The notes beneath the pieces are model-generated. The model searched no databases. It was not told the origin of the DNA and worked only from the letters and a program-made list of their open reading frames with translations. From NCBI RefSeq assembly GCF_009856865.1, contig NZ_WVUD01000008.1, positions 1 through 64,000 on the forward strand: a stretch of 64,000 bases of DNA. The letters run 5' to 3'. Below, piece after piece: positions 53,796 through 62,249 of the stretch. This stretch comes from Solidesulfovibrio aerotolerans. GTDB lineage: Bacteria; Desulfobacterota; Desulfovibrionia; Desulfovibrionales; Desulfovibrionaceae. Position numbers and translations under genes: made by a program. Position 1 is the first letter of the stretch. Each line of letters starts with the position of its first letter.

Positions 53796-54113
53796 TTAGG
53801 GCGGCGGGGCGATGGTCACCAGCACGCGCATGTCGGTTATGGAGCGGATGCCGTGGGGTGTACTGATGGGGCAGACCAGCACATCGCCGGCCTTGGCCGG
53901 GCTGGCGGCGTTGTCCGCGCCGAGGAATTCGCCTTCGCCTTCAAGGATCACGATGGACAGTTCGCCGTCCATGTCGTGGGAGTGGACGGGCAGGGTCTGG
54001 CCGGCCTTGAAGTTGAAATTGATGATGCGGAAATTGGCGGAATCGTGGAGCCACAGCATGCCGTAACCGGTGTCCTTAAACGGGCCTTCGTCAAAGATAT
54101 TGTGCTTTGTCAT
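53796..54113 (-). CDS. small cupin-domain protein
   Basis: A 105-residue single-domain cupin. The metal-binding motif one is LPVHSHDMDGELSIVILEGEG (two His and a Glu-like position) and motif two is DVLVCPISTPHGIRS. No catalytic domain is attached, so it is a metal/ligand-binding or isomerase-type cupin of unknown substrate. It is the last gene in a likely hcp-ferredoxin-cupin unit (79 bp after the ferredoxin). Confidence 0.82.
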   Translation of the reverse strand: MTKHNIFDEGPFKDTGYGMLWLHDSANFRIINFNFKAGQTLPVHSHDMDGELSIVILEGEGEFLGADNAASPAKAGDVLVCPISTPHGIRSITDMRVLVTIAPPP

Positions 54114-54192: not shown

Positions 54193-54954
54193 TTAGCCCA
54201 GCGTGGTCAAGGGCGCGTTGCCGGTAGGCAGGGGCACCATGCCGGCGATCTCGCCGCGACGGGTCACCACGACCTGGGTGGCGGGCACGCGTTTGCCCGA
54301 GGCGGCGATGGCCTGGGCGGCCAGGCGCGACATGCCGGCGCAGCAGGGCACTTCCATTTGCAGCACCGTGATATCGACAATGTCGTTTTGCTGGATAATC
54401 GCTGTCAGTTTCTCCACATAGCTTGGCACATCGTCAAATTTGGGGCAGCCCAGGAGCGCAATGCGGCCGGGCAGCAACGCGCTGTGAAAGGCCGGGAAGG
54501 CCGGCGGCACGCAATCGGCGGCCAAGAGCAGCTTTGCGCCTTGCAAAAACGGGGCGTTTGGCGGCACCAGGCGCAGCTTGATGGGCCAGGAGGCCAGGGC
54601 CGAGCCGCTGCCGGCACTCTGGGTCGCCTGGGCTGTTGGCGCATTGGCGGTCTGGCAGGGCGTCATGGTCATGGGCCGGCTCGACATGCAGCCGCAGGGG
54701 CTGGCGGCCTTTTTGATTTCGGCCAGCCGTTCTTCCACAGCCTCTTCGTCAAATTCCGGGGCGTCGCGTTCGATGATTTGCAGGGCGCCGGTGGGGCAGT
54801 GGCCGATGCAGGCCCCCAGGCCGTCGCAGAAATGGTCGGCCACGATTTTGGCCACACCGTCAATGATTTCCAGCGCCCCTTCGGCGCAGCCGGTGACGCA
54901 CTGTCCGCAGCCGTTGCACAGCGCTTCGTCTATTTCAATAATCTTTCGTTTCAT
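54193..54954 (-). CDS. 4Fe-4S ferredoxin-domain protein linked to hcp
   Basis: A 253-residue protein. Residues ~10-60 hold a two-cluster ferredoxin: CNGCGQCVTGCAEG is canonical; the second motif reads CDGLGACIGHCP, so one cysteine of CxxC is replaced by Leu, a variant that could hold a [3Fe-4S] or altered cluster. Later cysteines (SPCGCMSS; LGCPKFDDV; VPCCAGMSRLA) suggest one more site in the C-terminal part. It lies 63 bp downstream of hcp on the same strand and probably donates electrons to it. Confidence 0.85.
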   Translation of the reverse strand: MKRKIIEIDEALCNGCGQCVTGCAEGALEIIDGVAKIVADHFCDGLGACIGHCPTGALQIIERDAPEFDEEAVEERLAEIKKAASPCGCMSSRPMTMTPCQTANAPTAQATQSAGSGSALASWPIKLRLVPPNAPFLQGAKLLLAADCVPPAFPAFHSALLPGRIALLGCPKFDDVPSYVEKLTAIIQQNDIVDITVLQMEVPCCAGMSRLAAQAIAASGKRVPATQVVVTRRGEIAGMVPLPTGNAPLTTLG

Positions 54955-55017: not shown

Positions 55018-56634
55018 CTAGCCGAGGATGGCCTTTAAGTCTTCGTCAGGGGTGGTGATGGCCTTTATATCGTAGTTGGCCACCAGGAAGTTCAGGACAT
55101 TGGGGGTTAAAAAGGCCGGCAGAGTGGGTCCGAGGCGGATGTTTTTAACGCCCAGGTGGAGCAGCGTCAGCAGGATGGCCACGGCCTTTTGCTCGTACCA
55201 GGACAGGATCATGGACAGGGGCAGGTCGTTGACGCCGCACTCGAAGGCCTTGGCCAGGGCCACAGCCACCTGGATGGCGGAATACGCGTCGTTGCACTGG
55301 CCCATGTCGAGCAGGCGCGGGATGCCGCCGATGTCGCCGAGCTTTTTGTCGAAAAAGCGGAACTTGCCGCAGGCCAGGGTCAGGATGATGGTGTCGGCCG
55401 GGGCCTTCTCCACAAATTCGGTGTAGTAGTTGCGGCCGGGCTTGGCCCCGTCGCAGCCGGCCACCAGGAAGAAGTGCTTGATCTTGCCGGCCTTGACCGC
55501 TTCGATGACCGGTCCGGCCACGCCCATGACGGCGTTATGGGCAAAGCCGGTCATGACCGTGTCCTTGTCCTCGTCAGCCGGGAAGCCGGGCATGGCCAGG
55601 GCCTTGGCGATGACCGGGCCGAACTCGCCGTTTTTGACATGCACCGCGCCGGGCCAGCCGACGAGGCCCGTGGTGAAGATGCTGCCCAGGTAGCTCTCGG
55701 CCGGCTTCTGGATGCAGTTGGTGGTCATGAGGATGGCGCCGGGGAAGGCGGCGAATTCCTTGTGCTGGTTCTGCCAGGCGGTACCGTAGTGGCCGTAGAA
55801 GTGCGGGTACTTTTTGAGCTCCGGATAGCCGTGGGCCGGCAGCATTTCGCCGTGGGTGTAGATATTGATGCCCTTGCCGGCGGTCTGCTCCAGGAGCTGC
55901 TTGAGATCCTTTAAATCATGGCCGGAAACCAGGATGGCCTTGCCGGCCTTGTGGCCCAGCGGCACGACGGTGGGAACGGGGTGGCCGTAGGCACCGGTGT
56001 TGGCGGCGTCCAGGAGTTCCATGGCGCGCAGGTTGACTTCGCCGCACTTGAGAACCAGGGCGACCCAGGCACCGAGGTCTTTGTCGGTGGTGAAGGTGGC
56101 GGCCATGCCGTCGTAGAGGAATTCGTACACGGCCGGGTCTTCCTGGCCGAGGATGGCGGCATGGTCGGCGTAGGCGGCAACGCCCTTGATGCCGAAAATG
56201 AGCGTGTGCTTGAGCGAGCGGATATCGTCGTTGGCTTCGGGGATGTCTTTGAGGCCGTGCTTGGCACCCTGGGCAGTCAGACCGGCCAGATCGGCGGCCG
56301 GGACGTAGGTGGCCGGACCTTCGGGCAGCTTGGCCTTGAGCAGACCGGCCAGGGCGTCGCGCTTGGCTACGGCTTCAAGGATGAGCGGCATAAAATCGGC
56401 CGGGTCGAAATTGACGTTGGTGAGCGTCGAGAACATGGCCTTGGCAAAAAAGCGGCCGGTGTCCATGGGCACGGCCACGCCTTCCGCCTTGGCGGCCACG
56501 GCGGCCTGCCCCAGGCCCGTCAGGGCGTAGACGAGCAGATCCTGCAGATCGGAGACTTCGGGCTTTTTGCCGCACACGCCGAGTTTGTCGCAGCCCAGGC
56601 CCTTGGCGGTCTGTTCGCACTGGTAGCAAAACAT
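55018..56634 (-). CDS. hcp: hybrid cluster protein (Hcp, hydroxylamine/NO reductase)
   Basis: Cytoplasmic Fe-S-O enzyme of 538 residues; Hcp acts in nitric oxide/nitrosative stress (reported NO reductase and protein S-nitrosylase; in vitro hydroxylamine reductase). The N-terminus has the four-cysteine cluster CYQCEQT...GLGCDKLGVC (spacing CX2CX8CX5C, residues 3-21), as in Desulfovibrio Hcp. Hybrid-cluster ligands are visible as His and Cys residues in GHDLKDL, TNCIQK, ACGKFR and NDAYSAI regions. The ATG at 56634 has GGAGG upstream. A palindrome 77 bp upstream fits HcpR control. Confidence 0.97.
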   Translation of the reverse strand: MFCYQCEQTAKGLGCDKLGVCGKKPEVSDLQDLLVYALTGLGQAAVAAKAEGVAVPMDTGRFFAKAMFSTLTNVNFDPADFMPLILEAVAKRDALAGLLKAKLPEGPATYVPAADLAGLTAQGAKHGLKDIPEANDDIRSLKHTLIFGIKGVAAYADHAAILGQEDPAVYEFLYDGMAATFTTDKDLGAWVALVLKCGEVNLRAMELLDAANTGAYGHPVPTVVPLGHKAGKAILVSGHDLKDLKQLLEQTAGKGINIYTHGEMLPAHGYPELKKYPHFYGHYGTAWQNQHKEFAAFPGAILMTTNCIQKPAESYLGSIFTTGLVGWPGAVHVKNGEFGPVIAKALAMPGFPADEDKDTVMTGFAHNAVMGVAGPVIEAVKAGKIKHFFLVAGCDGAKPGRNYYTEFVEKAPADTIILTLACGKFRFFDKKLGDIGGIPRLLDMGQCNDAYSAIQVAVALAKAFECGVNDLPLSMILSWYEQKAVAILLTLLHLGVKNIRLGPTLPAFLTPNVLNFLVANYDIKAITTPDEDLKAILG

Positions 56635-57166
56635 ATGTCGTCCTCCGTTTGGGTTTGGTTCGGATTCGCGTTTCGTTGATTTCGGTCTACGCGGGCCGGG
56701 CCGGGAGCGGTTTGACCTAAGTCAAAAGGGCGCATTATTTTCGAGAGGTCCGCATTTTTTTGGGGGACCGGTGTCGCGAAGCCGGAAAGGCAGTGAATCC
56801 GCAACCGTGTTTGCCGTGGCGTCGGGGAGTCGCGCGGGCGCGGCGTCCCCTGACGCGGGGACGGGAAACCTTTTGGGGAATAGGGGGACTATAGTACGGG
56901 ATGGGGGAAAAAGGTCAAGGCGCGTCTGGTAGCCAACGGCCGTGGCCAGAGCCGCAGGTGTCCTGGGCGCTTCGCCGGAGCGACTATCGGAAAGGTGCCC
57001 CCGGGCTGCCCGTTTTTCCGAAGCCGGCATCACCCGGGCGGTCTCGCGATAGAGGCCCGGGAGTGCGGCCTTATGATTGTCACATACGCAGCGTAGTGTA
57101 ATTTTTCAGGGTTCCAAGGCGTTGTCGTGGGAGAGCATGTCGGACTTTTGTCTATCGGAGCTGTGT
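56635..57166. other. divergent regulatory region between hcp and the chemoreceptor gene
   Basis: 532 bp with no credible gene. Left part: hcp leader and HcpR-type palindrome. Middle (about 56740-56900): AT- then GC-rich DNA with self-complementary arms (GGTCC...GGACC at 56747-56770). Right part leads to the chemoreceptor start. Confidence 0.55.
56711..56726. promoter_or_regulatory. HcpR-type operator upstream of hcp
   Basis: TTTGACCTAAGTCAAA, an exact inverted repeat TTTGAC-N4-GTCAAA. Its centre is 84 bp before the hcp start codon. A weak -10-like TAGACC on the minus strand lies 31 bp further, as expected if the site is centred near -41.5 and acts as an activator site. It matches the TTGACC-like palindrome known for HcpR in Desulfovibrio. 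Confidence 0.8.
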
Positions 57167-59389
57167 ATGTTCAAAGATTTGCAGTTGCGTTATAAAATTC
57201 TTTTCCCCGTTTCCCTGGTCTGCGTTGGGGTGTTTGCAGCCATCATGATTGTGGTGCAAATGGAAATGGAGGAAAAGTCTGCCATCGAGACGCGCCAGCT
57301 TGGAGAGGAAGTCAGCGCCCGCTACGCCGGCGTGGTGCAGGGGGAACTCAATGCCGCCATCAGCGCCGCCAAGGTTCTGGCTGCGGCTGTTGCCAGCGAG
57401 CGGGCCGCCGAGCAGCCCCACCGGGCTGCTGTGGCCGGTCTGCTGCGACGGACCCTGGACGTGTTGCCCAATGTTTTCGGGGTCTGGACCGCCTGGGAAC
57501 CAGACGCCTTTGACGGCAGGGACCGGGAATTTGCGAACGCGGATGCCCTGCACGAGGCCTCGGGGCGCTTTCTGCCTTACCTGATCCGGGGCGAGGCCGG
57601 CGTTGAGCAGACCCATACCACGACACCCTCGGCGGGTACCCGCGACGAGGGGGAAAAGTGGTATTGGCTGACCCTTGAGACGAAAAAAACGCTGCTTGTG
57701 GAACCGACGGAATACGAGGTGGCCGGCAAGAAGCGGATGATGGTCAGCGCATGCGTTCCCCTGCTGGAGAAAGGCCAGGGGGTGGCCGGCCTGGATCTGA
57801 GCCTGGAAAATCTCCAGCGGCTTGTTTCGAGCATCTCGGTTTTTGGCGGGGGCTACGGCGTGTTGTTGTCCAATACGGGGATGATTGTGGCCCACCCCGA
57901 GAAAGGCCTCATCGGAAAACAGGCCGGTGATCTGCTGGACGCCGCCAACAAGGTGGCGGTGGCCGAGGCCCTCAAAAACGGATCGCGTTTCCTGTTCTCC
58001 CAGAAATCGCCGAGCACGGGCCAGGAGATGCTCTACAGCATGACGCCTGTGGCGCTTGAAGGCGTGGCCGGGGCCTGGAGTTTTATCGTCGGCATCCCGA
58101 AAGAGGCCATGCTGGAAAATGCCCGCCACATGCAGATGGTGCTTTTCTGGTTGTGCCTGGGTGGCCTGATCCTCCTCATTGCCGCCGTCTTCCTGATCGC
58201 CCGGGCCATCGTCCGGCCGGTTGGGCAGATCGCGCAGGCCGCCCAGGTTGTGGCGGCGGGCGACCTGAACCATCCCATCGAAATCCGGCAGCGGGATGAA
58301 ATCGGCCGGCTGGCCGACGCGTTGCGGGAGATGGTGGACGGACTTCGGAGCAAGATCGCCGAGGCCGACGAAAAGACCCGTCTGGCCGGCGAGGAGTCGG
58401 ACCGGGCGGCCCGGGCCGGCGAGGAGGCAGAGGCGGCCCGGCAGGCAGCCGAGCGGGCCAAGACCGAAGGTATGCTGCACGCTGCGGCCCGGCTCGAAGA
58501 CGTGGTGGAGATTCTGTCCTCAGCGTCCGATGAACTGGCCGCCCAGGTCGGGCAGTCGAGCCGGGGCAGTGAAGAGCAAAACGGTCGGGTGGCCGAGACG
58601 GCCACGGCCATGGAAGAAATGAATGCCACGGTGCTGGAAGATGCCCGCAATGCCGGCGAGGCGGCTTCGGCTGCCGAAAACGCCAGGACACGGGCCGAGG
58701 ACGGAGCCGGGATCGTGGCCAATGTCATCACGGGCATCGGTACGGTCCAGACCCAGGCCACGTCGCTTAAGGCCGACATGACGAGCTTGGGCCGGCAGGC
58801 CGAGGGCATCGGAAACGTCCTGAACGTCATCTCCGACATCGCCGACCAGACCAATCTGCTGGCCTTGAATGCCGCCATCGAGGCGGCTCGGGCCGGTGAG
58901 GCCGGGCGGGGTTTTGCCGTGGTGGCCGATGAGGTCCGTAAGCTGGCCGAAAAGACAATGGTTGCCACCAAGGAGGTCGGTGACGCCATCCGATCCATCC
59001 AGGATGGTGCCCGCAAAAATATCGACAACGTGGAGCAGGCCGTGACCTCCATCGACGGGGCCACGGCCATGGCCCGGCAGGCCGGGGAATCCCTCAAGGG
59101 CATCGTCTCCTTGGTGGAAACGACTTCCGAGCAGGTGCGTTCCATTGCCACGGCGGCCGAACAACAATCCGCCACGTCCGAGGAGATCAACCGCTCCATC
59201 GATGCCGTCAGCCGGATCTCGTCTGAAACGGCCGACGCCATGCGCCAGTCGGCCCAGGCCGTCGGTGAATTGGCCGAACAGGCCCAGGCGCTCAAAGGAC
59301 TCATTGCCGATATGAAAGACGAAAGCGGGGCCACGGCCCTGGCCGGTGCGGGGGTGAGACCTCCGGCCCTGGCGCGCGCCCGGAGTTGA
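57167..59389 (+). CDS. methyl-accepting chemotaxis protein with dCache-like sensor
   Basis: Chemoreceptor of 740 residues: TM1 at ~14-34, a large periplasmic double-Cache-like domain (~40-320; [12 protein letters not shown] and [16 protein letters not shown] are typical), TM2 at ~322-350, HAMP ([15 protein letters not shown]), a long coiled coil, and the signalling hairpin with [19 protein letters not shown] near residue 560. The ATG at 57167 has GGAG upstream; a longer frame reading exists but begins in non-protein-like sequence. It probably senses a small ligand; it is divergent from hcp, with no shared operator evident. Confidence 0.92.
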
Positions 59390-59401
59390 GCTTCCCCGGT
59401 G

Positions 59402-59442
59402 CCTCGCCGTGTTCCAATCGTTGTTGTCGGAACACGGCGAGG
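59402..59442 (+). terminator. hairpin after the chemoreceptor gene
   Basis: CCTCGCCGTGTTCC and GGAACACGGCGAGG form a perfect 14-bp stem around a 13-base loop, followed by only a short TT. A likely transcript-ending or stabilising hairpin between convergent genes. Confidence 0.65.
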
Positions 59443-59495
59443 TTCTGCCAAGCCCGGGATACAGCGTGTTGACCGCCCACGGCTCGTGCTTTTTC

Positions 59496-60806
59496 CTATA
59501 TCCGCGCCACCCCCAAAAACACCGCGTGCAGCGCCACGACCAGCGCGAAAAAGGCCTGCCGCGCCGCCGTCGACGATAAGCCGGGAAAGCGAAAGGCGAT
59601 GCGCGCGCCAGGGCAGGCCCCCACACAGTCGCCGCATAAGGTGCAGGTCGCGCCGGGCCGGCCGCGTTCCAAATCAGCCGGGGACAGGGCCAGATAGCGG
59701 CACACCCGCGTACACCGGCCGCAGCCGTCGCAGCCTTCCCCTATGCGGATGCGCCAGGGGCTGATCCGCCCCAGCACATTGCCGAGCAGCCCGATGGGGC
59801 AATACAGCGTGCAATGAACCATGACCCCGGTCGCCCGCGACAGCGTTGCCATGACGACCAAGCCGATGCCCCCGAAAATCGCCGCTGCCCAGACCGCTGC
59901 CAGGGTCGAAACCCCGGCCCAGCGCATTCCCAAAGCCCCGCCAACCGCCAGCGCCAAGGTCGCCAGCCGCCACCAGCCGAGTTTGCCGGGCAGGCGCTTG
60001 GGTGTGCCCCGGCCCAGGCGGGCGCAGGCGTCGTCGGCCGCGCCGAGGTAGCACAAATGCGAACACCAGCCCGGCCCCACCAGCAGCAGCGTGGACAGAT
60101 AGAGGATGGGCATGAAATAGCCGCCGCCCCGGTAGAGCGGGCCGGCGACGATAAGCGCCGGCACCGGCAGATGCAGCGCCCCGGTCATGAGGAATATTGT
60201 TTCGCCGGCCAGACCCAGGGCGAGTTGGCCGAAAAAAACGAGCGAAAAGGCCGCCCAATAGCGCGAGCGCAAGGGGCCGGTGTGCGGCGCGTTGAGCATA
60301 CGACCGGTGAGCCAGGCGGCGTAACCGGCCAGGGCAGTGATCTCAAAGAGTCCCCAGCCCGGAAAGAAACGGTCGGCCAGCAGGATGGGGAAGGACACTT
60401 TGGCGCGGGCCAGGGCCAGCAGCCCGGCCGCGAGCCAAAAGGCCGCCGCCTGGGCCAGGGCCGCCGCGCTGCCGCGCCGGTAAAACGCCTGCCCCCGGGC
60501 CGAAAAAGCGAAAAGCCCGCCCGCCGCGCACACCGCCACCACCCCGGCCATGATGGCCAGCAGACGGAGGTACGGCATCCCGGCCGCCAACCGAAAGAGC
60601 GCCATGTCCCGGGCGACGACGACAAAGGCCAAGCCCATGGCCAGCAGCGCCGGGCCGACGATCAGCCGGGCAAAGCCCTGCCGGCTGCACACCAGACCGA
60701 CCAGGGCCAGACACGATGCGGTGAGGCCAAGCTCGCCCAGGCGCAGGCTGTGGGCGGCAAAAACGAGCAGCCCGAGAATTTGCAGGAGAACGCCGGCCGC
60801 AGTCAC
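59496..60806 (-). CDS. NapH-like polytopic membrane ferredoxin
   Basis: A 436-residue integral membrane protein with roughly ten hydrophobic segments and two C-terminal [4Fe-4S] motifs: CDGCGRCTRVCRYL and CTLCGDCVGACP. It also has CxxxC-type motifs at WCSHLCYLG and HCTLYCPIG, as in NapH/NosR-like proteins that pass electrons between quinol and periplasmic reductases. The start is a GTG at 60806 that overlaps the upstream gene's stop by 4 nt (GTGA). Longer in-frame readings lie over the upstream gene. It is the second gene of the unit divergent from hcpR. Confidence 0.82.
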   Translation of the reverse strand: MTAAGVLLQILGLLVFAAHSLRLGELGLTASCLALVGLVCSRQGFARLIVGPALLAMGLAFVVVARDMALFRLAAGMPYLRLLAIMAGVVAVCAAGGLFAFSARGQAFYRRGSAAALAQAAAFWLAAGLLALARAKVSFPILLADRFFPGWGLFEITALAGYAAWLTGRMLNAPHTGPLRSRYWAAFSLVFFGQLALGLAGETIFLMTGALHLPVPALIVAGPLYRGGGYFMPILYLSTLLLVGPGWCSHLCYLGAADDACARLGRGTPKRLPGKLGWWRLATLALAVGGALGMRWAGVSTLAAVWAAAIFGGIGLVVMATLSRATGVMVHCTLYCPIGLLGNVLGRISPWRIRIGEGCDGCGRCTRVCRYLALSPADLERGRPGATCTLCGDCVGACPGARIAFRFPGLSSTAARQAFFALVVALHAVFLGVARI

Positions 60807-61435
60807 GATAGCACCCAGGCCGGCAGTCCCGGCAGGCCGCCCGGGGACAGGATGTCGCCAAAGCGCAGGCCGGGGCGCATATGGCGCACATAGGCGGCAA
60901 CGCTGCGCTCGGCCAGGGCCAGGGCGTCGGCCGGGGGCAGACTGTGGCCCAGGTCGCAGCCCAGGTGCGGTCGCCGGCCCAGACGCCCGCCAAGAAAGGC
61001 TCGAAAGCCGACCCGGCCGGTTGCTATGGCCTGCGTCGGGCAAACGGCGGCGCACTGGCCGCAGCCCTGGCAGACGGCGGCATCAAGGACGGCCTTGCCG
61101 GCGCGTAGCGCCATGGCCCGGTCCGGGCAGCCCGCAACGCACAGGCCGCAGCCGGTGCAAAGGCTCGGATCAACGGCCACGGCCAGGGCGGCGGCCAGCC
61201 CCAGGTCGGCCACTTGCGGGCGCACGCAGCCGTTGGGACAGGCGCACACGGCCAGCCGGAACTGCTCATGGCGGCGCAGCGGGCGGGCCAGAGCGGCCAC
61301 GGCCGGCGGTTGCGGGGCGGCGGCGGCCAGATTGACCAGGGCGGCGACCCAGTCCCAGTCCAGGGGCGCGGCGTGGGGGCAGCAGGACGGCTTAACACCC
61401 CGGCAGGTTTCCAGTAGGATGGCGGGAACTGGCAT
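60803..61435 (-). CDS. 4Fe-4S protein with siroheme-reductase-like cysteine motif
   Basis: A 210-residue soluble protein. Two canonical clusters: CTGCGLCVAGCPDRAM and CQGCGQCAAVCPTQAI. Upstream, FRLAVCACPNGCVRPQ resembles the CxCPNGC-type motif near the siroheme/cluster of nitrite and sulfite reductases, and the C-terminus resembles a reductase fragment (LGGRLGRRPHLGCDLG). The ATG at 61435 follows AAAGGAC. It is the first gene after the HcpR-type palindrome on the minus strand, so likely a redox partner for nitrosative stress. Confidence 0.8.
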   Translation of the reverse strand: MPVPAILLETCRGVKPSCCPHAAPLDWDWVAALVNLAAAAPQPPAVAALARPLRRHEQFRLAVCACPNGCVRPQVADLGLAAALAVAVDPSLCTGCGLCVAGCPDRAMALRAGKAVLDAAVCQGCGQCAAVCPTQAIATGRVGFRAFLGGRLGRRPHLGCDLGHSLPPADALALAERSVAAYVRHMRPGLRFGDILSPGGLPGLPAWVLS

Positions 61436-61512
61436 GGCGCGTCCTTTGTGGGGCGGATTGTGTGTCCGGGGGCGGTTGCCGCCAAAGATGGCGCAAGCGC
61501 GTCCAGCCTGCC

Positions 61513-61526
61513 TTGACTTACGTCAA
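61513..61526. promoter_or_regulatory. HcpR-type operator between hcpR and the Fe-S genes
   Basis: TTGACTTACGTCAA, palindrome TTGAC-N4-GTCAA, sharing the same arms as the hcp site (TTGAC and GTCAA). It lies 15 bp before the regulator's GTG and 77 bp before the divergent ATG at 61435. Position next to the regulator's own start suggests autoregulation. Confidence 0.78.
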
Positions 61527-61541
61527 AAACGGGGGAGCGTC

Positions 61542-62249
61542 GTGGATAAAGCCCAAGCCGTGGCCGGCATCGGTCTGTTTGCCGGTCTTGGTGCCAAGGA
61601 ACTGGCCGCTTTGGCCGGCATCGCCGAAGTGCGCCGGTTTGGGCGCGGTGAGGACATCTTTTTTTCGGGTGACCCGGCCGAGGGTTTTTTTTCGGTGGCC
61701 TCGGGCAAGGTGCGCATCTACCAGACGTCGCTGGCGGGCAAGGAGCATATCGTCCATGTGTTTGGCCCGGGCGAGGTGTTTGCCGAAGTGGCGGTCTTTG
61801 CCGGCGGGGTCTACCCGGCCAGCGCCCAGGCCCTGGAAGCGGGCGATTATCTGTTCTTTCCCCGCGAACGCTTTCGCCGCCTTTTGGCCGACGACCCGGA
61901 TCTGGCCCTGAATATGCTGGGGCTGCTCTCCATGCGCCTGCGCCAACTCGTCAAAAAACTTGAGGATTTGAGCCTGCGCGAAGTGCCGGCCCGCCTCGCC
62001 GCCCATTTGCTGCTTCTGGGTGCGGAAAGCAAAAAAAAGCTGCTCTCCCTGGATCTGCCCAAGGGGCAACTGGCCGCCTATCTCGGCACCATCCCGGAAA
62101 CCCTGTCCCGGGTGCTGCGCCGCTTTGCCGACGACGGACTGATCAGCCTGTCCGGCAGCGCCATTGAAATTCTGGATGCCGGCCGCCTGGAAGCCCTGGC
62201 TGCGGGCACGGCGGCTGGGACGCCGCCGTTCGGGCCGGCAGCCCGTTAA
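61542..62249 (+). CDS. hcpR: Crp/Fnr-family transcriptional regulator, HcpR-like
   Basis: A 235-residue regulator: cNMP-like sensory domain (RFGRGEDIFFSGDPAEGFF; VFGPGEVFAEVAVFAGG), dimerisation helix, and HTH_Crp (LPKGQLAAYLGTIPETLSRVLRRF, with DGLISLSG in the wing). HcpR in Desulfovibrio senses NO/nitrosative stress and controls hcp. The assignment rests on the Crp/Fnr fold plus location: palindrome 15 bp upstream, Hcp-type Fe-S genes divergent, hcp ~5 kb away. The GTG at 61542 is behind GGGGGAG. It lacks the N-terminal Cys set of Fnr, so no [4Fe-4S] O2 sensing is expected. Confidence 0.78.
   Translation: MDKAQAVAGIGLFAGLGAKELAALAGIAEVRRFGRGEDIFFSGDPAEGFFSVASGKVRIYQTSLAGKEHIVHVFGPGEVFAEVAVFAGGVYPASAQALEAGDYLFFPRERFRRLLADDPDLALNMLGLLSMRLRQLVKKLEDLSLREVPARLAAHLLLLGAESKKKLLSLDLPKGQLAAYLGTIPETLSRVLRRFADDGLISLSGSAIEILDAGRLEALAAGTAAGTPPFGPAAR

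Follow-up and report, generated by a model that had tools for sequence, protein, structure and literature searches.

Two matching operators and a predicted HcpR-type regulon linking hcp to a ferredoxin-like/NapH-like operon in Solidesulfovibrio aerotolerans

The regulator HcpR has been described in deltaproteobacteria, together with its operator type and a core regulon made of hcp, which encodes the hybrid cluster protein Hcp, and frdX (Rodionov 2004, PMC545781; 2005, PMC1274295). In these papers, TTGAC half-sites go with a proline or serine at position 180 of the regulator and TGTGA half-sites with an arginine; the TGTGA type is given for Desulfovibrio and the TTGAC type for other deltaproteobacteria. 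A yccM polyferredoxin of Desulfuromonas is also included there. In the 2004 paper, an operon described as "putative sulfite/nitrite reductase, polyferredoxin" (206515-206516) is preceded by an HcpR site in D. vulgaris and G20, and a personal communication cited there has this operon and hcp-frdX strongly induced by nitrite in D. vulgaris. In D. desulfuricans 27774, the HcpR2 regulator lies beside hcp and a cupin gene, and these two genes have the highest values in the nitric oxide (NO) table, as given in the first part of the corresponding section (log2 of 4.4 for the cupin and 3.17 for hcp; PMC5701242). Here we describe a related locus in a stretch of 64,000 nucleotides from S. aerotolerans (contig NZ_WVUD01000008.1, positions 1 to 64,000; hereafter the window), where an hcpR-like gene is accompanied by two operators, one upstream of hcp and the other upstream of an operon encoding a ferredoxin-like protein, Fdx210, and a NapH-like membrane protein.

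This locus shares with the deltaproteobacterial HcpR regulon the TTGAC-N4-GTCAA operators and the Pro/Ser180 type of regulator, the hcp/frdX core and a sulfite reductase-like/polyferredoxin operon, the latter being likened by description only. With the 27774 locus it shares a regulator placed beside hcp and a cupin gene, both induced by NO in that strain. The literature has contained the motif, the hcp/frdX core and a sulfite/nitrite reductase-polyferredoxin operon under HcpR control since 2004 (PMC545781), and our additions are modest: an extension of the residue-180 rule across the sampled Desulfovibrionales, with glutamine added, and the sulfite reductase origin of the "ferredoxin". Most probably, one HcpR-type regulator controls both operons and itself, because the sites and their spacing are conserved in relatives and the operator co-varies with residue 180 in the recognition helix. 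The original prediction of a single HcpR-type regulon tying the ferredoxin-like/NapH-like operon to hcp is thus upheld.

Two operators and their conservation

Two palindromes with exactly matching arms had been predicted in the window, and both were found where they had been placed. They and the genes that they flank are as follows.

56711..56726, no strand assigned: HcpR-type operator upstream of hcp, TTTGACCTAAGTCAAA
61513..61526, no strand assigned: HcpR-type operator common to the divergent hcpR and ferredoxin-like/napH-like operon, TTGACTTACGTCAA
61542..62249, plus strand: hcpR-like gene, Crp/Fnr regulator of 235 amino acids without cysteine, helix TIPETLSR
55018..56634, minus strand: hcp, hybrid cluster protein of 538 amino acids (NCBIfam hydroxylamine reductase, Pfam Prismane)
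60803..61435, minus strand: Fdx210, 210 amino acids, the half of an Fsr/Dsr-like sulfite reductase that binds [4Fe-4S], carrying an inserted 2[4Fe-4S] ferredoxin
59496..60806, minus strand: NapH-like membrane protein of 436 amino acids, two CX3C motifs and 2[4Fe-4S]

The exact pattern TTGAC-N4-GTCAA occurs in the window only at these two sites. The narrow pattern TTGACNNANGTCAA likewise occurs twice, at both operators, for 0.01 occurrences expected from shuffles. When one mismatch was allowed in TTGACNNNNGTCAA, five places were found against 0.83 expected, the two operators being the only exact ones. The arms are identical over five base pairs (TTGAC/GTCAA), which is the length over which exact sharing holds; six-base-pair arms are found in the hcp-side operator only. 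The hcp and Fdx210 ATG codons both lie 77 nt downstream of the end of their operator, and the hcpR GTG lies 15 nt downstream of the second operator. At both operons, a likely -10 element was located 30-35 nt past the operator centre:

56684..56689, minus strand: likely -10 of the hcp promoter, TAGACC
61485..61490, minus strand: likely -10 of the ferredoxin-like/napH-like promoter, CATCTT

Both hexamers start 30 nt after the operator centre. Across eight rows of the genus, the hcp element is TAGACC in six and TAAACC in one, with a one-base shift in locus L065; in L068 and L069, from another genus, it reads TATCTC and TATTTG. The Fdx210 element fits xAxxxT in 7/7 genus rows, and its A alone is kept in L068 and L069. 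Such a spacing between operator and -10 is the class II activation geometry established for CRP and FNR. Class II activation is therefore predicted at both operons, from an operator centred at about -41.5. The position of the second operator, 15 nt before the hcpR start codon, suggests in addition negative autoregulation of HcpR.

Conservation of the operators was assessed in the family, where 88 of 149 genomes hold a homologue of the regulator (E <= 1e-40). Forty of these 88 neighbourhoods were taken, representing 23 of the 26 genera in which the regulator was matched, with about 8 kb on each side and less at contig ends. Among the eight other genomes of the genus, the hcp-side operator is present in all seven hcp-containing stretches and the hcpR-side operator in all but L065. 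The hcp operator is identical to the letter in the eight aligned genus rows, this genome included, inside an invariant block of 17 nt (TTGACTTAGGTCAAACC, hcp sense); the four central bases of the hcpR-side operator vary among these rows. A site matching at least 9 of 10 positions lies 68-80 nt before the start of hcp in 18 of the 24 relatives in which this start could be placed. The other six comprise three with such a site (at least 9/10) at 103-104 nt, L078 with an 8/10 match at 72 nt and a 9/10 match at 222 nt, and two with Arg180 regulators (L089 and L092), where the matches are partial and distant. Of 101 regions of 150 nt upstream of hcp, hcpR, Fdx210 and frdX in the 40 relatives, 42 contain the exact motif; 59 palindromes with permuted half-sites were absent from all of them. 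The 42 regions are not independent, since one site can serve two divergent genes, and the total over the 40 loci is 31 exact sites.

The genome-wide search proposed with the original prediction returned eight exact sites in 4.61 Mb, against two for the reversed control, two of the eight being the window operators. Four of the other six lie within genes and two outside, with gene boundaries taken from our own simple codon-usage gene calls; proof is thus carried by position. These additional sites would favour a chance match, the palindromes not being operators at all. We reject this explanation, and give it almost no credence, since both sites and their spacing are conserved in relatives across genera.

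The remaining genes of the region are the last two of the hcp operon and a gene lying between the two operons:

54193..54954, minus strand: frdX-like [4Fe-4S] protein of 253 amino acids, second gene of the hcp operon (Fer4 families)
53796..54113, minus strand: small cupin, last gene of the hcp operon (Pfam Cupin_2)
57167-59389: chemotaxis receptor (HAMP, MCP signal, weak dCache), between both operons

Hcp scores 804 bits with NF003658, for a cut-off of 367, and belongs to this family. A frdX-like gene follows hcp in many relatives, and the order hcp-frdX-cupin recurs, for example in L059, L061 and L064. In L074 and L076, a NapH-like gene followed directly by frdX and the cupin gene is found beside hcpR, in stretches holding neither Fdx210 nor hcp; the NapH-like gene can therefore stand with FrdX alone. 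The regulon had been predicted to span 5 kb. Two operons do lie at the ends of this interval, and the chemotaxis receptor gene is also inside it, so that the 5 kb correspond to two operons plus another gene. A receptor gene occupies the equivalent place in L061, L063 and L065, and is absent from that place in other relatives.

The regulator and its operator type

The hcpR-like gene encodes a cNMP_binding domain followed by HTH_Crp_2, the architecture of the HcpR family, and lies in the neighbourhood of hcp and frdX, with the motif upstream of hcp. Its recognition helix TIPETLSR provides Pro180, Glu181 and Arg185 (CRP numbering), as published for the TTGAC type. The cysteine motif of Fnr-type iron-sulfur proteins is absent, as expected for HcpR. 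Among 41 aligned regulators, 32 have no cysteine, seven have one and two have two, and His72 is kept in 40. Since the protein studied here has no cysteine, a cysteine-ligated cluster of the Fnr type is excluded for it, in contrast to the iron-sulfur cluster proposed for HcpR2 of D. desulfuricans 27774 (PMC5701242). By sequence, the nearest relative of this regulator with a solved structure is DNR, an NO sensor (E 3.7e-30). Sensing of NO through haem has been described for DNR and for HcpR of P. gingivalis; by analogy, and given the lack of cysteine, haem is the likely route by which this regulator would sense NO.

The relationship between operator type and residue 180 was examined at Fdx210 loci. 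Fdx210 is present in 76 of 199 genomes of the order, often at a distance from hcpR, and 20 further loci of this and other families were fetched; of these, 16 have a NapH-like gene next to Fdx210 and four include hcpR in the stretch. The operator is also present at Fdx210 loci with no hcpR nearby. Within 300 nt, 31 loci were classified. With Pro180, 12 have a TTGAC-type site and two have none; with Gln180, nine have a TTGAC-type site and three have none; with Arg180, three have a TGTGA-type site and two have none. No crossed combination of operator and residue was found among these loci. L140 (TTGAC, Gln180) was left out of the 31, its Fdx210 match being below 60 bits, and the TGTGA-type site of L136 (Arg180) lies more than 300 nt away. 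Thus, across the sampled Desulfovibrionales, the operator before the Fdx210 operon follows residue 180 of HcpR, Pro or Gln going with TTGAC and Arg with TGTGA. The published division (PMC545781, PMC1274295) gives TGTGA to Desulfovibrio and TTGAC to other deltaproteobacteria, whereas 21 of the 24 operator-bearing Fdx210 loci of Desulfovibrionales are of the TTGAC type here. That division can be refined, since in the sampled Desulfovibrionales the type tracks residue 180.

Several observations weigh against this regulon. No operator was recognised within 300 nt at seven of the 31 Fdx210 loci. Among Arg180 loci, the best match before hcp in L089 is a hybrid, TTGACGCGGGTCAC, 183 nt away, which resembles the D. 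vulgaris hcp site printed in the 2004 paper (PMC545781), and L092 (at 230 nt) and L096 show only 8/10 TTGAC-type matches upstream of hcp. A second regulator with Pro180 exists in 4 of 21 genomes (G153, G154, G172, G194), so that only the best-matching regulator determines the residue given for each genome. Relatives are not independent, and the co-variation counts therefore overstate significance. Within the genus, L065 lacks the hcpR-side operator, and neither L065 nor L066 shows Fdx210. The six other exact sites of the genome, mostly intragenic, make the motif by itself weak evidence. All of the support is comparative, regulator binding and activation being predicted. Finally, a paralogous regulator elsewhere in the genome (C85:9078-9728; loci L010 and L022) has the same residues at 180, 181 and 185 as HcpR (P-E..R) and could share both operators.

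This paralog and a third related regulator, C77:19923, are respectively 33% and 37% identical to HcpR. One of them, rather than HcpR, might use the two operators, HcpR having a different target. The shared recognition residues of C85:9078 speak for this idea; against it, the operators accompany hcpR and vary with its residue 180, and the motif upstream of C85:9078 is TTGATGTTGATCAA (TTGAT-N4-ATCAA), in which position 5 is T and not C. We consider such an exchange of regulators very unlikely. The C85:9078 protein perhaps governs a sister regulon, distinguished by position 5 of the half-site.

Fdx210, the NapH-like protein and the electron route

The best solved relative of Fdx210 is the F420-dependent sulfite reductase (Fsr), with E-values of 2.4e-26 from the single sequence and 6.8e-43 from a profile, and the NIR_SIR family is recognised in 32/32 aligned members. 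The AlphaFold2 model of Fdx210 has a predicted local distance difference test score (pLDDT) of 92. Its residues 2-210 align with Fsr 418-613 (Z 17.2, root-mean-square deviation 2.7, 192 residues), and dissimilatory sulfite reductases follow at Z 13-14. On these grounds, a plain "2x4Fe-4S ferredoxin" could be ruled out. Over its own whole length, Fdx210 thus matches Fsr 418-613, including the ferredoxin insertion, in which the cysteines of both clusters are kept, and the CX3C motif. It differs from Fsr in having neither the F420H2 oxidase half nor the sulfite reductase stretch before 418.

The cysteines expected for a sirohaem-coupled [4Fe-4S] cluster are also present: Cys11, Cys66 and Cys70 in 32/32 members and Cys19 in 31/32, the remaining relative (L069:8668-9402) having Arg instead. 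Their arrangement agrees with the CXnC...CX3C ligands, and Cys70 corresponds in the alignment to Cys472, the bridging residue of Fsr. The first spacing is CX7C in this genome and the Fsr-like CX5C in some relatives (e.g. L129, L137). The oxidase domain of Fsr ends near residue 336, and Arg355 is one of its four substrate residues. As Fdx210 matches Fsr only from 418, the stretch of about 336-418, Arg355 included, has no counterpart, and we infer that this stretch anchors the sirohaem. At the position of Fsr Lys460, Lys or Arg is found in 4/32 members and Gln in this protein; at that of Lys462, Arg or Lys is found in 29/32. Fdx210 therefore lacks part of the sulfite reductase domain and does not have the full set of four Arg/Lys substrate residues. 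From sequence and model, it is apparently a relic of a sulfite reductase, with three [4Fe-4S] clusters and without the half that anchors sirohaem.

Fdx210 might nevertheless bind sirohaem, perhaps as a dimer, and reduce nitrite, hydroxylamine or NO, the electrons coming from the NapH-like protein, under the same regulon. The near-invariance of the four cluster cysteines, the canonical CX5C of L129 and L137, and the description of one Fsr relative as a nitrite/hydroxylamine reductase are in line with this possibility. The missing counterpart of Fsr 336-418 with Arg355 and the rarity of Lys/Arg at the Lys460 position, although Arg/Lys is common at that of Lys462, make it unlikely in our opinion.

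The NapH-like gene begins with a GTG overlapping the Fdx210 stop codon. Its product has the two CX3C(P) motifs and the C-terminal 2[4Fe-4S] of the NapH/MauN family, and Cys248/252, Cys332/336 and eight more cysteines are invariant in 30 aligned NapH-like sequences. It differs from this family by its 436 amino acids, with more N-terminal helices than the NapH models of 255 and 286 positions, and its scores remain far below the NapH cut-offs (48 bits for 213 with TIGR02163, 41 for 234 with NF007013). No nap gene was found among the eight neighbouring proteins scanned. Its sequence profile matches solved structures in the C-terminal ferredoxin part only, and a fold search with the model returned no match with Z >=8, the best, at 7.0, being unrelated helical proteins. 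The two cysteine-bearing loops are the richest in Lys and Arg (5 and 10), so that, by the positive-inside rule, they would face the cytoplasm. NapH-like genes were found in 9 of 247 genomes of the phylum, including this one and four others of its family; in the ten loci inspected with 1.5-kb flanks, hcpR was beside the gene in two, both of this family. The original prediction had seen in the pair a membrane quinol-redox path with a ferredoxin. The co-regulated operon stands; the NapH-like protein falls below the NapH cut-off, and the "ferredoxin" derives from a sulfite reductase.

From these comparisons, a scheme can be proposed in which every step is predicted: binding and activation by the regulator, its sensing of NO through haem, its autoregulation, and the electron wire as well as the direction of flow. 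HcpR (61542-62249) would bind both TTGAC-N4-GTCAA operators, sense NO or a related signal, most likely via haem, and activate hcp-frdX-cupin and Fdx210-napH-like from class II positions, while probably limiting its own synthesis through the operator before its start codon. Hcp would remove NO, and Fdx210 and the NapH-like protein would act under this stress as an iron-sulfur wire on the cytoplasmic side, connecting the quinone pool with soluble redox proteins. We hold this explanation as a whole with good, though not full, confidence.

The claim that the pair is an electron supply route to NO detoxification finds no support as worded, since co-regulation and neighbourhood alone link the pair to Hcp. 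In the 40 hcpR neighbourhoods, hcp is present in 24, a NapH-like gene in 21 and Fdx210 in 12. Menaquinol has a potential of about -75 mV. A 2023 paper gives -250 to -150 mV for the hybrid cluster of class I Hcp, calls the electron donor of this class unknown, and places the Hcp of Desulfovibrio in it; by analogy, Hcp is assumed to be of class I in this genome. With such a potential, below that of menaquinol, quinol would be a poor donor and the step would be uphill; the direction of electron flow may then be the reverse.

A parallel path, accepting the regulon and contesting only the connection of the wire to Hcp, would be consistent with these values. Fdx210 and the NapH-like protein would pass electrons from reduced ferredoxin, or from other donors in the cytoplasm, to the quinone pool, or serve redox balance, and FrdX would feed Hcp. 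The position of frdX in the hcp operon agrees with this proposal, a functional link having long been suggested (PMC545781, PMC1274295), as does the finding that the NapH-like gene and hcp occur together in only 11 of the 40 stretches. A common regulator and neighbourhood would rather fit a joint pathway. In addition, the overall reduction of NO is strongly favourable, so that a small uphill step is possible, and NapH proper is a subunit of a quinol dehydrogenase. We regard this parallel path as a serious possibility, just short of probable. The more ambitious idea that, in sulfate reducers, the pair is the electron donor still missing for class I Hcp is tentative and rather doubtful; it would be a membrane Hcp reductase switched on by HcpR together with Hcp, its soluble part being a sulfite reductase minus the sirohaem half, with three [4Fe-4S] clusters serving as a wire. 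In the literature on HcpR, Hcp, NapH and polyferredoxins, no description of the pair as a partner of Hcp was found in the titles and abstract openings of the papers listed. In the NO table of strain 27774 (PMC5701242, first part of the section), the pair is not recognisable by name, two membrane proteins that it gives without names (Ddes_2104-2105) being outside this comparison. By tying hcp to an iron-sulfur pair, the conserved regulon provides testable donor candidates: FrdX, Fdx210 and the NapH-like protein.

The motif and related regulators elsewhere in the genome

The relaxed pattern TTGAYNNNNRTCAA was found at 22 places in the whole genome, against four in the control, and sites with one mismatch at 140 against 68. 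Eleven of the 14 extra relaxed-pattern places were inspected by eye. One precedes the C85 regulator, next to an operon of the ferredoxin type, another is within a hydrogenase-like gene, and no further redox operon stood out as a candidate. A wide regulon in this genome was consequently discarded, the six other exact sites being mostly intragenic and the 11 inspected places showing no further clear redox operon.

A second hcp-like gene (C119:9254-10891, L175) has a 9/10 site, TTGACCCATGTCAG, 130 nt upstream and would be a possible further target of HcpR. Because a match of this quality also arose in 37 of 200 shuffles of its 4.6-kb locus, which is not beyond chance, the gene was left out of the regulon. 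One exact site, TTGACGCATGTCAA (C81:2684-2697, L002), lies between divergent genes resembling a polysaccharide ATP-binding cassette (ABC) permease and a glycosyltransferase. As judged by eye, the C85:9078 regulator adjoins an operon resembling a ferredoxin-type membrane complex, and the third related regulator (C77:19923-20579; L011, L023) adjoins genes resembling adenosine 5'-phosphosulfate (APS) reductase and a sulfate-type transporter.

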